From positions 1 to 53,082 of the forward strand of contig JANTGM010000032.1 in assembly GCA_024762925.1 (NCBI GenBank): a stretch of 53,082 bases of DNA, given 5' to 3'. This DNA is from Kofleriaceae bacterium. GTDB lineage: Bacteria > Myxococcota_A > Polyangia > Haliangiales > Haliangiaceae. Each line of letters begins with the position of its first letter. Position 1 is the stretch's first letter. Positions 39,951-45,346 of the stretch are shown piece after piece. The notes beneath the pieces were generated by a model that was not told the origin of the DNA, searched no databases, and saw nothing but the letters and a program-made list of their open reading frames with translations. A program made the position numbers and the translations under genes.

Positions 39951-41093
39951 TCAGAAGGGGCCAGCGAGTGCGAGATGCAGTGCCAGCTCGTCTTCGAAGT
40001 CGCTGAAGTCGTAGAGTTCCACACTGGACTTGATTCGCAAGCCCATACTCAGGCGATATGCAACGGCAGCGGTATATCGGAGCACCGCACTCTTTGAACG
40101 AAGTGGACTGTTTGCCACAACGTTGCCGAGTCGCCGCATGCCGTCCCAGCGTCCGATCACATCGAAGTTGTCAGTGAGGGGAACCTCGAGTTCGGTGTAG
40201 AAGCCATCCTTAACGAAGAAAGGATCAAACTCACCATCCGCGCCTGGGCCATACTTGAAGCGCGTCGATGGATCATCACCCAAGGCCATCTCCGTTCGGC
40301 GCACAATGTACTCAGAGCGCCAGTACATCCGTTTGAAGCGCAGTTGGAAATCCGCGCCCATCAATTGGTAGCTCAAGCTATTCTCGGGATCGTAGTGTCC
40401 GGCCATGCCCGATAGGCCAAAGGCCAAACTCAAGTCATCTGTGAGATCGAATGAAGTCCCGAGCTTTGCTCCAACCGAAGGCCGGGAGTTGTTGTCGACA
40501 TAGTAGCGATCGCGCGAACGGGACTGAATGAAGTCGAAGTCGTCTGCGCCGGTCGACGCCTTTGGGCCACCGATTGCGTAGAAGGCGTAGTCGAATCGCG
40601 CGCTATCGCCCGTGAACTTTGTGCCACTCACCTCCACGCCGTTGTCGACCCAAGGCGTCGGCAGGATGCTCATATTCCACTCGTCGGTGCGAAGCATGCG
40701 TCCCATGTCGTACGGGAGGGGCTTGTCACTTGTGCGGTGATTGGCCGGATCGTGGCGCAGCGGAAAACTGCCAAACTGCGGCGTGAAGCGGCCGACTCGA
40801 AAGTTGAGCAAGTCGCTTGAGCGCAGATCGAAGAACGCCATCCCCACGTCCAAACCGTGACACGCCACGCAGACTTTGATGTTTGACGAGACTTGGTCGT
40901 TGAAATCGACGGCGAGCTTCAGTGAAAGCTCTACTGTTGCACCGTCGAGGCCTTGATTGCGGGCCACGTCTTCTGTTGGAACAGCGAGATAGTCGAGCTG
41001 AACAGAACCTGCGAAATTGCGATCGTGATCTTCTGCTACAGCGCTGCTCGCAAGTGAAGTTAGGGCGATCAGAATAAGTACGACTCGAATCAC
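39951..41093 (-). CDS. Porin-like outer-membrane protein with CxxCH haem motif
   Basis: A 380-aa protein with a signal peptide (VIRVVLILIALTSLASSAVAED) and an alternating-strand body (ATVELSLKLAVDFNDQVSS, LNFRVGRFTPQFGSFPLRHDP, RFDYAFYAIGGP, LSLAFGLSGMAGHYD, LQLRFKRMYWRSEYIVRRT, ENFDVIGRWDGMRR-like strands), ending in ...ALAGPF with a terminal Phe, as in BAM substrates. C75-V-A-C78-H79 is a perfect c-type haem-binding site inside the barrel region, which is unusual for a porin. GTG 41093 overlaps the upstream stop as GTGA and has AAGGAAG before it. Last gene of the 44809-39951 operon. Confidence 0.75.
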   Translation of the reverse strand: MIRVVLILIALTSLASSAVAEDHDRNFAGSVQLDYLAVPTEDVARNQGLDGATVELSLKLAVDFNDQVSSNIKVCVACHGLDVGMAFFDLRSSDLLNFRVGRFTPQFGSFPLRHDPANHRTSDKPLPYDMGRMLRTDEWNMSILPTPWVDNGVEVSGTKFTGDSARFDYAFYAIGGPKASTGADDFDFIQSRSRDRYYVDNNSRPSVGAKLGTSFDLTDDLSLAFGLSGMAGHYDPENSLSYQLMGADFQLRFKRMYWRSEYIVRRTEMALGDDPSTRFKYGPGADGEFDPFFVKDGFYTELEVPLTDNFDVIGRWDGMRRLGNVVANSPLRSKSAVLRYTAAVAYRLSMGLRIKSSVELYDFSDFEDELALHLALAGPF

Positions 41094-41440
41094 TTCGCTT
41101 CCTTCTTCAAAGTAGCTAGTCCCTCCGAGCCGAACGAGCGGTAGACCAAGCACTGCACGATCTTAGGTTCTTCTGCCTCACGAATCCCTGCACCAGGCAT
41201 AAGTCGCATGCGATGCACGTACATACGCCAGGCCTCTGGAGTCCCAACTTCGGTCGCCAAAAGTTGGTCCATTGTGTGGCATCGCGTGCACTTCTTCTGC
41301 GCTAGTGTACAGCCTTCTAGCACGATCTCACTTGGGCTCTCCATGCCTCGCACAAGCGGGTTGCCGCCAGATTGGGCGCCCGAGCAACCTGCTGATGTGG
41401 CGAGAACTACCAACAGCGAACACACTGCCCTAATTATCAT
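41090..41440 (-). CDS. Monohaem c-type cytochrome lipoprotein
   Basis: A 116-aa lipoprotein (TSAGC, C19) with one haem site, C51-T-R-C54-H55, and a Met-rich segment (YVHRMRLMPGAG) that can give the sixth ligand. The size fits a class I cytochrome c domain. The ATG at 41440 lies inside the end of the preceding gene (11-bp overlap), and its stop overlaps the GTG of the porin gene. An open frame extends upstream to 41653 inside the neighbouring gene and is rejected in favour of the signal peptide start. Confidence 0.82.
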   Translation of the reverse strand: MIIRAVCSLLVVLATSAGCSGAQSGGNPLVRGMESPSEIVLEGCTLAQKKCTRCHTMDQLLATEVGTPEAWRMYVHRMRLMPGAGIREAEEPKIVQCLVYRSFGSEGLATLKKEAK

Positions 41441-41888
41441 TGGCGCCCTCCGCGATCCAGTCGTGAATGAGTTGTAAGAGTATCTCTGAGAGGTATGGCG
41501 GCCCACCGAGAGGCATGCGCGCGCCAAAAGGTGGGCCAGGGCTAACCTTTTGGTACAAGATGCTTTCGCAAGGTTGTCCAGGGATGATGGCAATTCCATC
41601 ACTATTGGCTCCACCGCGACGAGCCGTTCTGAGGCTCGAGAGGTCAAGGCCACTCACTTCGAAGCCGAAAGGTGTGGTTGCATCGGGTGTATGGCACTGC
41701 AGGCAGCCAAGTGGTTGAGGATCGAAGATGAGTGGCCGAATCTCGTCTCGGAAGCTCACATCAACATCTGGGTCGGTGTCTTCGTTTGAGCAAGGGGCAC
41801 TTTGTAGGGGGCCCACATCGGGCTCATATGACTCGATGCATCCTGCCTGCAGCAGAATGATCAACATGGATGGCATGAGCGTTCGCAC
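41430..41888 (-). CDS. c-type cytochrome-like lipoprotein
   Basis: A 152-aa lipoprotein (LQAGC, C17). C62-L-Q-C65-H66 lies in the pattern DEIRPLIFDPQPLGCLQCHTPD, typical of the planctomycete/deltaproteobacterial cytochrome C-like domain; RMPLGGPPYLSEILLQLIHDWIAEGA is the usual C-terminal half and supplies the Met ligand. GTG 41888 directly follows the upstream TAG. Membrane-anchored, probably facing the periplasm or cell surface. An electron-carrier role is inferred from the motif. Confidence 0.82.
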   Translation of the reverse strand: MRTLMPSMLIILLQAGCIESYEPDVGPLQSAPCSNEDTDPDVDVSFRDEIRPLIFDPQPLGCLQCHTPDATTPFGFEVSGLDLSSLRTARRGGANSDGIAIIPGQPCESILYQKVSPGPPFGARMPLGGPPYLSEILLQLIHDWIAEGANDN

Positions 41889-42887
41889 CTAGAGCCCCCC
41901 TGGAGCGGATTGTTGCGGCAGATTGCGCAAATCCTCGGTCTTCTCAAAGGAAACAACTCGACCGGGACGTGGCTCGGGAGCAAAGAGGTCACTAAATTGT
42001 TTGACACCCGATGCTTCTTGGTTCTGTGTGATGTCAATGAGAGGAAAGCCGTCGTCTGGCACTGTCACATTCACACGCCTTGTCAGCGGGCTGTAGCGTG
42101 CATCGGACGGTTCACGCTCAAAGACGTTGTTTGTGTCAACGATGTCACCATCGTTGGTTATATCCACCTGGCGAAGCGGCTCGCTCAAAGGTTCTTTGCC
42201 CTCACGAGAAATCACCAAGACTTCTGGCTCAGGCTCGGTGTTGCTATCGGGGATTGGCATGAGGCCGAGGTCGTAGTTGCGGACCGTCTTGCCTTGCCAA
42301 TAGAATAGATTGGAAGGTGGCAGCGGATCTTCGCCGTCACCGACTTCGAGACGTACATCGGTGGCGACGGCAGGGCAATTGATGGCAATGGTTGGTTGCC
42401 TTGGAGCGAGTACCAGTCCGAGTTGTTGTGCTTCTTCAACGGCGGCAAAGGACGTGATGAGTTCACCATCATACAGATCCGTCACCTCCAACAAGTAGAG
42501 AGTCCAATAGGGCGAGTATCCCGAGTCGCCAGGAATGGCATCGACGATCGTGTTATGGGCAAGGAAGATTGGTTCGTCGTTCTCATCGATTCGCACAAGT
42601 GCAAACAGTGGAGCGCCAAAGCTCGGGCTGCTTCCAAGGTCCCAATAGCGAACGGGCAAGCCATCGGCAAAGGCGCTCAGAAGCGGCACAGTTCCATCGA
42701 CGCCATCGTTATCGGCAATCTGCTGCTCGAGAACCGGGTCATCGTGGGCGCTCGGAACGTCGCTTCCTGCTGGAAGGATGAGTCCCGAGAGCACGACATC
42801 GTCGCTCACCTGAGGATCGAGACACGCGCCCACTCCGATTGAACATGCCGCAAGCATGCCAAGTGCGATTCGATTTTGTTTGGTCAT
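41889..42887 (-). CDS. Hypothetical lipoprotein of the kinase-cytochrome operon
   Basis: A 332-aa lipoprotein (VGAC, C22). The mature protein is mostly beta and has few features: an internal sequence PVRYWDLGSSPSFGAPLFALVRIDE, VTDLYDGELITSFAAVEEAQ, and a C-terminal stretch with ...VPDDGFPLIDITQNQEASG. No family recognised. Its ATG overlaps the stop of the kinase gene (ATGATGA arrangement), and the next gene starts directly after its own stop. Position alone suggests it belongs to an envelope complex with the two cytochromes and the porin. Confidence 0.75.
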   Translation of the reverse strand: MTKQNRIALGMLAACSIGVGACLDPQVSDDVVLSGLILPAGSDVPSAHDDPVLEQQIADNDGVDGTVPLLSAFADGLPVRYWDLGSSPSFGAPLFALVRIDENDEPIFLAHNTIVDAIPGDSGYSPYWTLYLLEVTDLYDGELITSFAAVEEAQQLGLVLAPRQPTIAINCPAVATDVRLEVGDGEDPLPPSNLFYWQGKTVRNYDLGLMPIPDSNTEPEPEVLVISREGKEPLSEPLRQVDITNDGDIVDTNNVFEREPSDARYSPLTRRVNVTVPDDGFPLIDITQNQEASGVKQFSDLFAPEPRPGRVVSFEKTEDLRNLPQQSAPGGL

Positions 42888-44809
42888 CATTGCTTGGGCT
42901 CGTAGGTGAGCGTGAACGAAACTGGCTGAGCGCCAGTGTCTGGATGGTCGCGAGTGCGAAGCTTCTTGACGGCCTTGTCGATGCAACTAGCGAGTCCGCT
43001 CAGTGGCGTGCTTGAGACGCTCACTCTTTCCGCCCGGCCATTCTCGTTGAGGAAGTACTTCACCTTCACACGGAGTTTCATGTTCTTCTGCGAAGCTTTG
43101 GCCGCTTTTTCGTAACACCCAGCAAACTTGGGCATGCTCGTCTTGATTGGGCGCCGCACTTTGCTATCAGAAAGGGAACCATCAGAGGCAAATGAGCCAA
43201 TGGCTGTTTTCGCTTTGAACACAGTGGGCTTTGGTGGCTGAACCACAGGAGGTCTTGGCTTGGGTTTCGGCTGCACCACCAGCTCGGGTTTTGGCTTGGG
43301 CTTTGGCACCGCCGGATCGGGTTTTTGCTCAGGCTTTGGCTGCATCACCAACTCGGGGGTTGGCTCGGGCGCTGGTGGCTCTTTTGCGCGTTTTGGGGTT
43401 GGGTTGCGCGGTAGTCGATTTCGGTCTCGGCGAGGCTTGTCGCGCTGTGGTTCGCGAGCCGATTCAACCGAGGCGTCTGCGTCTGCGATCGCAACTACAG
43501 CAGTGCTTGCATCGGGTGGTGGCGTTAGGGCCGGCTGCGTTAGCGCTTTGGTGCCCGCATCGACAACAATGAGTGCTGGTGTGAGTTTGGCAGTCTTCGA
43601 GTTTTCGTCTGCCGTTTTGTCATTGCCTAGAACAAGGAATGCAGCAGCTGCGACTCCCACCAGAGCAGTAGCCAACATTGCAGGCCTTGCCCATCGAAGA
43701 CCGCCTTTCTCTGGGGACTTTGCAACTGCGTTTTGCGGCGCAGCATTCGTCGCATCTGCTGCTGCCTCGCCAAGCGACCCTTCGTCCGTTGCCAGTTGAG
43801 CAACGGCCGTCATGGTTTGGGCTGTTTCGATTTGCTTGCGAGTGCTCTGTTCTGAAGTGCTCGTCTCTGCGCTTGCGTGAGCGACCGCCGCACGTGGTGC
43901 TTCGATCGCTTCAAGAGCGGCAAGAACCTCGCGGGCACTAGAGAATCGCTCGGCAGGATCCTTGGCCATGAGCTTTGTGATGACCGCTTCAAGCTGTGGT
44001 GAGACCGCAAGTCCTGCCCGCTCCGCGATTGGTGGCGCTGGTGCAGTTGCGTTCTTGTAGAGCACATCGATTACGCTGCCACTAAATGGCAACATGCCTG
44101 CCAACATCTCGTAGATGGAAACACCAAGGGCAAAAAGATCGGTGCGGAGATCAACTGGGTGCCCTTGGGATTGTTCTGGTGAGATATAGGCAGGTGTTCC
44201 AACCACGAGGCCCGCGGTTGTGAGTCGAACCGATGATTCTTCGGGGGTGCTGATGATCGCAAGACCAAAGTCGAGAATCTTAGGAACCGTCTTGCCGTCG
44301 TGTTCTACAAGTGCGACGTTGTCTGGCTTGAAGTCACGGTGCACCAAGCCCTGCTCGTGCGCGTGGGTAAGCCCCAGACAAATCTGCTTGGTGAGCTCGA
44401 TGGTCTCAAGCTCTGATAGTGCTCCGGCATCAACTCGATCGCAGAGGCTGCCGCCCTCAATGAAGTCCATGACCAGGTAGTGCAGGCCACTGTCCGTCTT
44501 TCCGAAATCGAGCACCGAAACAACGTTTGGATGCTGAAGCCGACTTGCTGCCTCGGCTTCCTGGCCAAAGCGCTGGCGCATGGTCGGATCGGCTGCCAGG
44601 TCGCCTAGGAGAACTTTGATCGCAAAGCGGCGCTTGGTTAGTCGAACATGGTGGGCCAGGTAGACTCGCCCCATCGCTCCTTCGCCAACGCAAGAATCGA
44701 TCGCGTATTGATCGGCAATGGTAGTGCCGATCAGCGGGTCGACCGAGAGAGTAGTGAGTGGGGTGTTGTCGATTGGGCAGGTATCAAAGCCTGTTCGATA
44801 CACTGCCAT
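42887..44809 (-). CDS. Ser/Thr kinase with TonB-like spanner and AgmX/PglI-type C-terminus
   Basis: A 640-aa membrane kinase. Kinase motifs: GEGAMGRVYLA, FAIKVLL, HRDFKPDN, DFGLAI, SPEQ. After a linker comes one transmembrane helix (RPAMLATALVGVAAAAFLVLG), then a Pro/Lys-rich stretch of about 100 residues (KPEQKPDPAVPKPKPKPE pattern) like the periplasm-spanning arm of TonB. The C-terminal 100 residues (MPKFAGCYEKAAKA, RVKVKYFLNENGRAERVSVSS, LASCIDKAVKKL) resemble AgmX/PglI TonB-like domains. ATG 44809 cuts a zinc ribbon in half: SCSTC lies just upstream in frame and CPID follows, so a CTG at 44827 may be the true start. First gene of a five-gene overlapping operon. Confidence 0.88.
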   Translation of the reverse strand: MAVYRTGFDTCPIDNTPLTTLSVDPLIGTTIADQYAIDSCVGEGAMGRVYLAHHVRLTKRRFAIKVLLGDLAADPTMRQRFGQEAEAASRLQHPNVVSVLDFGKTDSGLHYLVMDFIEGGSLCDRVDAGALSELETIELTKQICLGLTHAHEQGLVHRDFKPDNVALVEHDGKTVPKILDFGLAIISTPEESSVRLTTAGLVVGTPAYISPEQSQGHPVDLRTDLFALGVSIYEMLAGMLPFSGSVIDVLYKNATAPAPPIAERAGLAVSPQLEAVITKLMAKDPAERFSSAREVLAALEAIEAPRAAVAHASAETSTSEQSTRKQIETAQTMTAVAQLATDEGSLGEAAADATNAAPQNAVAKSPEKGGLRWARPAMLATALVGVAAAAFLVLGNDKTADENSKTAKLTPALIVVDAGTKALTQPALTPPPDASTAVVAIADADASVESAREPQRDKPRRDRNRLPRNPTPKRAKEPPAPEPTPELVMQPKPEQKPDPAVPKPKPKPELVVQPKPKPRPPVVQPPKPTVFKAKTAIGSFASDGSLSDSKVRRPIKTSMPKFAGCYEKAAKASQKNMKLRVKVKYFLNENGRAERVSVSSTPLSGLASCIDKAVKKLRTRDHPDTGAQPVSFTLTYEPKQ

Positions 44810-44856
44810 GCAGGTCGAACAGCTCAGACGTTCGTCTTCTTGATTTGCCGATTCGC

Positions 44857-45346
44857 TCAGGGCTCGCGTCCAGTCTCAGCTGCGTTCTCCGCAACCTGAA
44901 GTTGGAGGCTATTGTGACACAGCTTTGCGTCCTTGACCTCTTCTGGGCAGACGCTGTAAAGCAACGCAAAGTGTTCTGAGCGGCGGTCACTGGGCCCACA
45001 GTGTACGTTGGGTCTGCGTGAAGAGCTCTTGTGCTGCGCGGGAAGCAGGAAGGCCAGCATTTGACCAGGTCACTGCAGACTTCTTCCATAACTGTTGTGC
45101 GAAGTGTCTCTATGGCTTCGAACTTGGCACGATCCAAATGACGCATAATCGACTGCGGAAAGAATCGTGCGTGCCCACGCATCAATGTCGGCAGAGAGTT
45201 CGGCGTATCGGGATTCATCCAATGCGATTTGCGAGTACGCGTCTGCCGGAGCACCCAGACGCTCAAGTTCCGAGCCGAGCCAGACAAATGCATAGACCGA
45301 TACTTCCTCAAGCTCGGCAAGGCCGGCAAACCAGTCCTGGCAGTCG
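44857..45346 (-). pseudogene. Decayed ferritin-like-domain gene
   Basis: One minus-strand frame reads DWFAGLAELEEVSVYAFVWL, GSELERLGAPADAYSQIALD, ESRYAELSADIDAWARTIL and so on, with a pattern (E-x2-SVxAF, LGAP, A-x-DE-x-R-x-A) like the ferritin-like proteins of myxobacteria. It has no start codon (a TGA lies just upstream), breaks off at TGA 45070-45072, and then continues open in the same frame as far as 44857; a neighbouring frame carries DRAKFEAIETLRTTVMEEV in between, suggesting one shift out and one back. So this is a remnant, not a gene. The assignment to the ferritin-like fold is moderate. Confidence 0.55.

Follow-up and report, generated by a model that had tools for sequence, protein, structure and literature searches.

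The window analyzed here is a 53,082-nucleotide stretch of a Kofleriaceae contig in which five minus-strand genes abut or overlap one another between positions 39951 and 44809 (Table 1). Read in the direction of transcription, they encode a Ser/Thr protein kinase, a lipoprotein without a haem motif, two predicted monohaem lipoprotein cytochromes, which we refer to as cytA and cytB, and a porin with a haem motif of its own. All four junctions reported in the first-pass annotation are found in the sequence: the kinase stop and the lipoprotein start share ATGATGA (42887-42891), the GTG start of cytA at 41888 directly follows the lipoprotein TAG, cytA and cytB overlap by 11 bp (41430-41440), and cytB and the porin overlap in GTGA (41090-41093). 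Among the neighbor families of the barrel loci, we find no other conserved operon member beyond these five genes, and several apparent families were set aside as likely antisense shadows of these genes.

Table 1. Features of the five-gene cassette, with positions in the window.
Feature	Position	Strand	Evidence
Ser/Thr protein kinase with one TM segment, periplasmic Pro/Lys-rich arm and AgmX/TonB-like tail (547-633)	42887-44809	-	Pkinase 7.5e-44; myxo_SS_tail 8.3e-8; HRDFKPDN and DFG intact; hydropathy
N-terminal extension that probably belongs to the kinase, with in-frame Zn-ribbon SCSTC..CPID	44777-44860	-	Open frame upstream of ATG; ribbon also in homologues, e.g., L067
DUF7482-like lipoprotein, without haem motif	41889-42890	-	DUF7482 in 14/17 family members; AF2 pLDDT 85
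cytA, PSCyt1-like predicted monohaem lipoprotein cytochrome	41430-41888	-	PSCyt1 1.1e-6; alignment of 62 sequences
cytA CLQCH	41691-41705	-	Second Cys and His invariant, 62/62
cytA Met125, candidate distal ligand	41514-41516	-	Met invariant, 62/62
cytB, small class-I-like predicted monohaem lipoprotein cytochrome	41090-41440	-	Dehyd-heme_bind 8.9e-7; SorB-type 8.5e-7; alignment of 61 sequences
cytB CTRCH	41276-41290	-	CxxCH invariant, 61/61
cytB Met78, candidate distal ligand	41207-41209	-	Met invariant, 61/61
Haem-motif porin, 16 predicted strands, OprO/OprP type	39951-41093	-	AF2 pLDDT 76.7; OprP Z 25.3; Porin_O_P in 13/19 members
Porin CVACH (C75-H79), L2 hairpin, strands 3/4	40857-40871	-	77/77 homologues with coverage; stands in place of the L2 loop of haem-less porins
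Porin PLPYDMG, constriction loop L3; Met130 candidate distal haem ligand	40701-40721	-	Tyr128, Met130, Gly131 in 78/78; motif missing from haem-less porins

The predicted structure of the porin (AF2) is a 16-stranded barrel whose nearest structures are OprP and OprO, the match to OprP (2o4v) having an rmsd of 3.4 over 302 residues. The window protein itself is unmatched by the Porin_O_P model (PF07396), which is found in the majority of the family with a best value of 1e-7, and sequence searches of a library of solved structures returned no credible relative, whether the query was the barrel or a haem-less porin relative. Together, the Pfam matches within the family and the similarity to OprP bear out the proposal of the first-pass annotation that the barrel is related to porins.

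Reading the topology back from the C-terminal strand places the short turns in the periplasm and the long loops outside the cell. In this topology, three predicted strands come before the CxxCH motif, which is located at the L2 hairpin; when the protein is aligned with haem-less porins, the motif takes the place of their extracellular L2 loop. C75, C78 and H79 are invariant and K73 is nearly so in the 77 barrel sequences with coverage, and as CxxCH was not a search seed in the scan of the genome collection, this invariance is unseeded. The second conserved element is a Tyr-x-Met-Gly in L3. Y128, M130 and G131 occur in all 78 barrels, a count that is partly biased for Met130 by the inclusion of KPL[PV]Y[DEM]MG among the three search seeds of the scan; in a phylum survey run without such a seed, every full-length homologue carries the Met. 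Neither CxxCH nor PLPYxMG is present in the haem-less porin relatives that we examined. From these patterns of conservation, a c-type haem ligated by His79 and Met130 is likely. Two individual copies of the barrel are unusual. In a single-contig genome of 10.3 Mb (G177, locus L058, 9613-10392), one open frame covers just the C-terminal third of the barrel, and this copy looks broken or frameshifted. At locus L100 (2782-3798), where a kinase and a barrel are the only members detected, the motif reads CFACH and a deletion is observed just past it, at approximately strand 4.

The two lipoproteins upstream of the porin had been described as each having one CxxCH. Both motifs are present, whereas the lipoprotein assignment is less clear in the window, where the lipoboxes are imperfect (QAGC in cytA and SAGC in cytB), though lipobox-like signals are found in 49/61 cytA and 49/60 cytB homologues. 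The match of cytA to PSCyt1 includes CLQCH and, at 29.6 bits, is above the profile cut-off of 22 bits, while cytB matches two cytochrome-family profiles. In the cytA alignment, the second Cys, the His and the Met of an RMP motif are all invariant and the spacing of the haem motif varies, with CxxCH in 39 and CxCH, which has one spacer residue, in 22 of the 62 sequences. The shorter form is found, for example, at L072, L111, L113, L114, L116 and L121-L126, where the distal Met is still invariant. Mapped on the barrel tree, the distribution of the two forms needs at least six changes. In the literature searched, we found no paper on natural CXCH haem motifs. In cytB, both the CxxCH and the Met are invariant, such that the three haem motif sites counted in the first-pass annotation are conserved along with candidate distal Met ligands. 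A cytochrome with two cytB-type CxxCH motifs, possibly the product of a duplication, lies downstream of the haem-motif porin at L133 (8061-8672).

The lipoprotein encoded between the kinase and cytA matches DUF7482 in a profile search (E 4e-7), as do most members of its family. A comparison of its AF2 model with the PDB by Foldseek and VIA-align gave no match, and the predicted fold is possibly undescribed.

Within the kinase, the Pkinase domain spans residues 36-296 with HRD and DFG motifs intact, and it is followed by a single TM segment at approximately residues 376-395 and the Pro/Lys-rich arm. This much agrees with the first-pass annotation, which had also proposed an AgmX-type tip. The tip is less certain, as the C-terminal tail matches the AgmX/PglI C-terminal domain model (myxo_SS_tail, NF033768) at 32.2 bits (E 8e-8) when the protein is searched and at 36.8 bits in the genome search, both of which are under the curated cut-off of 40 bits. 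The tail model has 28 matches in this genome, indicating that the tail is generic. Both arm and tail are kept in most kinases of the cassette. PADLOC matches of the kinase were discarded as generic kinase-domain matches. The true start of the kinase probably lies upstream of the annotated ATG, since half of a Zn-ribbon (SCSTC) precedes this codon in frame and the same ribbon is found in homologues. There is no ATG, GTG or TTG start within the in-frame extension, and a CTG at 44860 is a possible start.

To describe the distribution of the cassette, we use two datasets. In a survey of 282 Myxococcota genomes, we observe approximately 21 strong barrel matches besides that of the window, with CxxCH in 20/20 of those covering the motif region. 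The scan of the genome collection yields 78 barrel loci, mostly from Myxococcota (Kofleriaceae, Polyangiaceae, Labilitrichaceae, Sandaracinaceae and Myxococcaceae), with single loci labelled Latescibacterota and Planctomycetota. Adequate flank, defined as at least 4.5 kb upstream and at least 3.5 kb downstream, is available for 36 of these loci. With iterated profiles, all 36 are found to carry cytA or cytB (cytA in 29, cytB in 31), while the kinase is present in 30 and the lipoprotein in 9; as the loci are related by descent, these figures are counts rather than independent events. Linkage in relatives, which the first-pass annotation had put forward as a check, is therefore observed. The gene orders include KabB, KLabB, KBLab, KbBLa, aBb and Bb (K, kinase; L, lipoprotein; a, cytA; b, cytB; B, barrel), and the retention of the same neighbors despite rearrangement points to a functional linkage beyond inherited order. 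The cassette is conserved and not a local accident.

The composition of this genome (6.8 Mb) provides a measure of chance association. It has approximately 152 kinase matches, 2 matches to PSCyt1 and one to cytB. With so few PSCyt1 and cytB genes in the genome, and with the same genes recurring beside the barrel across the phylum, the association goes beyond chance. Given how densely kinases occur in this genome, a kinase near the barrel would be expected in approximately 2-3 of the 36 loci, versus the 30 observed. No plasmid copy of the barrel was found. The genome's only other PSCyt1-type cytochrome (G000, contig C80, 2200-2358) lies less than 2 kb from another protein kinase gene, which is on the opposite strand.

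In the first-pass annotation, the products would form a chain from the cytoplasm to the cell surface with the kinase at its head. Neither an obligatory chain under the kinase nor a continuous path is supported. The haem-motif porin and cytochromes occur without the kinase in Latescibacterota L131 (cytA-barrel-cytB), Planctomycetota L138 and Myxococcaceae L110, while L080, L100 and L117 have a kinase and a barrel with no cytochrome detected within the available flank. As for the path, a kinase does not carry electrons. Because the kinase is absent in L131, L138 and L110, we consider it accessory to the redox core: the conserved core is the haem-porin with its monohaem cytochromes, and the kinase is a common addition in Myxococcota. 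At L100, the kinase directly abuts the barrel, and thus, a partnership between these two proteins stays plausible.

We favor the interpretation that the cassette is an outer-membrane electron-transfer module, similar in logic to Cyc2 and tethered or reporting to a kinase, and we assign it a probability of roughly 50%. In such a module, the 16-stranded OprP-type porin would hold one covalent c-type haem at the L2 hairpin, with Met130 of the constriction loop L3 probably closing the site, which would place the haem at the pore mouth or eyelet. cytA and cytB, as monohaem His/Met lipoproteins on the outer-membrane leaflet, would pass electrons between the porin haem and a periplasmic cytochrome pool. 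The inner-membrane kinase, whose arm would span the periplasm and end in an AgmX/TonB-like tip, appears to be co-transcribed in most Myxococcota; it most likely touches the outer-membrane complex and would either report the state of this complex in the cytoplasm or regulate it. The invariant CxxCH of the barrel, the Cys/Cys/His and Met of the cytochromes, the OprP/OprO fold, the constant adjacency of a cytochrome and the existence of a kinase-free core all support an electron-transfer module, as does the genome, which encodes cytochrome c assembly proteins and three haem-copper oxidases and has no match to an MtrB/PioB porin. Counting against it are the long gap that a single barrel haem would leave to any periplasmic carrier, the CxCH form of cytA in 22/62 loci and the kinase-barrel loci without a detected cytochrome. 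Furthermore, the neighbors of the barrel loci include no conspicuously conserved gene for an oxidoreductase, a quinol dehydrogenase or metal oxidation.

The main rival is a redox or gas sensor, in which the haem-porin and cytochromes would probe for an oxidant, reductant or gas outside the cell, while the TonB-like arm would relay the signal to the cytoplasmic kinase, with electron flow being incidental. The excess of kinases at adequately flanked loci is consistent with a sensor, as are the direct kinase-barrel adjacency at L100 and the conservation of arm and tail in most cassette kinases. However, the core is found without the kinase in several lineages, and two invariant His/Met cytochromes exceed what a sensor needs; we consider this explanation less likely than the electron-transfer module. 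A broader proposal, which we consider unlikely, combines several of these elements: a porin family with a c-type haem in the pore itself (L2 His/L3 Met) would serve as an outer-membrane electron gate or redox-gated channel read by the inner-membrane kinase via its TonB-like arm, amounting to a transenvelope redox-signalling device, together with a partner cytochrome that attaches haem via a natural CXCH.

The position of Met130 in the constricting loop of this fold, with the haem site replacing L2, raises the possibility that the haem staples L2 to L3 and that reduction or ligand binding frees Met130 to open or close an anion-type pore, the cytochromes setting the redox state. The fold is indeed that of the anion-selective OprP/OprO, but no conserved substrate, transporter or binding protein is found nearby, and we view a haem-gated porin as improbable. 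Finally, it is very improbable that the CxxCH pairs serve as disulphides or metal sites, with no haem, in an envelope-structure module tied to the kinase: cytA does tolerate CxCH, yet each of three unrelated proteins conserves a His and a Met along with both cysteines, and two of these proteins have cytochrome-family matches.

Under the favored interpretation or that of a sensor, the cassette would seem to be a hitherto undescribed means of moving or sensing electrons at the cell surface. To our knowledge, outer-membrane electron exchange has been little described in Myxococcota. If the porin carries haem, it would add to Cyc2 a second design of single-haem porin, one in which the haem lies on the side of the extracellular loops, and the co-encoded kinase could couple the redox state of the surface to signalling. 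The invariant KxCxxCH[GD] and PLPYxMG motifs provide an annotation marker for proteins that mostly lack a specific family name, and the repeated switches between CxxCH and CxCH in cytA offer a natural test of how tolerant haem attachment is.

Our literature search found no paper describing this cassette and, apart from Cyc2, no other haem-bearing porin of the phosphate-selective type. The first-pass annotation's statement that no system of such composition had been described must nonetheless be tempered, as Cyc2 has a closely related logic (PMC8406198). Cyc2 is a fused cytochrome-porin iron oxidase with a monohaem domain on a predicted 16-stranded OprO/OprP-like porin, and the cassette porin, which is of this type, likewise contains one CXXCH in its own chain. 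In Cyc2, the haem domain lies ahead of the barrel, on the side of the periplasm, and has AXPXFAR[Q/K][T/Y] 5 residues upstream of the CXXCH and PXL downstream (PMC8406198), whereas in the cassette, the motif lies within the barrel at the L2 hairpin, the AXPXFAR[Q/K][T/Y] signature is found in 0/79 barrels, and a cytochrome pair and a kinase are co-encoded. On the basis of haem position and the missing signature, the cassette porin does not belong to Cyc2. It shares the fold of the phosphate-selective porins OprP and OprO (Z of approximately 25, with most members matching the Pfam model) but differs from the haem-less relatives examined in that L2 is replaced by the haem motif and L3 is rewritten.

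As in MtrCAB, PioAB/MtoAB and Pcc, a barrel is paired with cytochromes in a system that would cross the outer membrane. These conduits, however, use large barrels (26-stranded in MtrCAB) and multihaem cytochromes. The cassette, with 16 strands, a haem motif in the barrel itself, one such motif per protein and no MtrB_PioB match in the genome, is not a member of this class. ExtI of Geobacter is a Porin_O_P-type porin in a cytochrome-rich cluster (PMC5877670) and is thus of the same broad type beside cytochromes, although it lacks a haem motif and has multihaem partners. The kinase, with its Pro/Lys arm and C-terminal tail, resembles the AgmX/GltG-type TonB-like tails of myxobacteria, here in a version fused to a Ser/Thr kinase.
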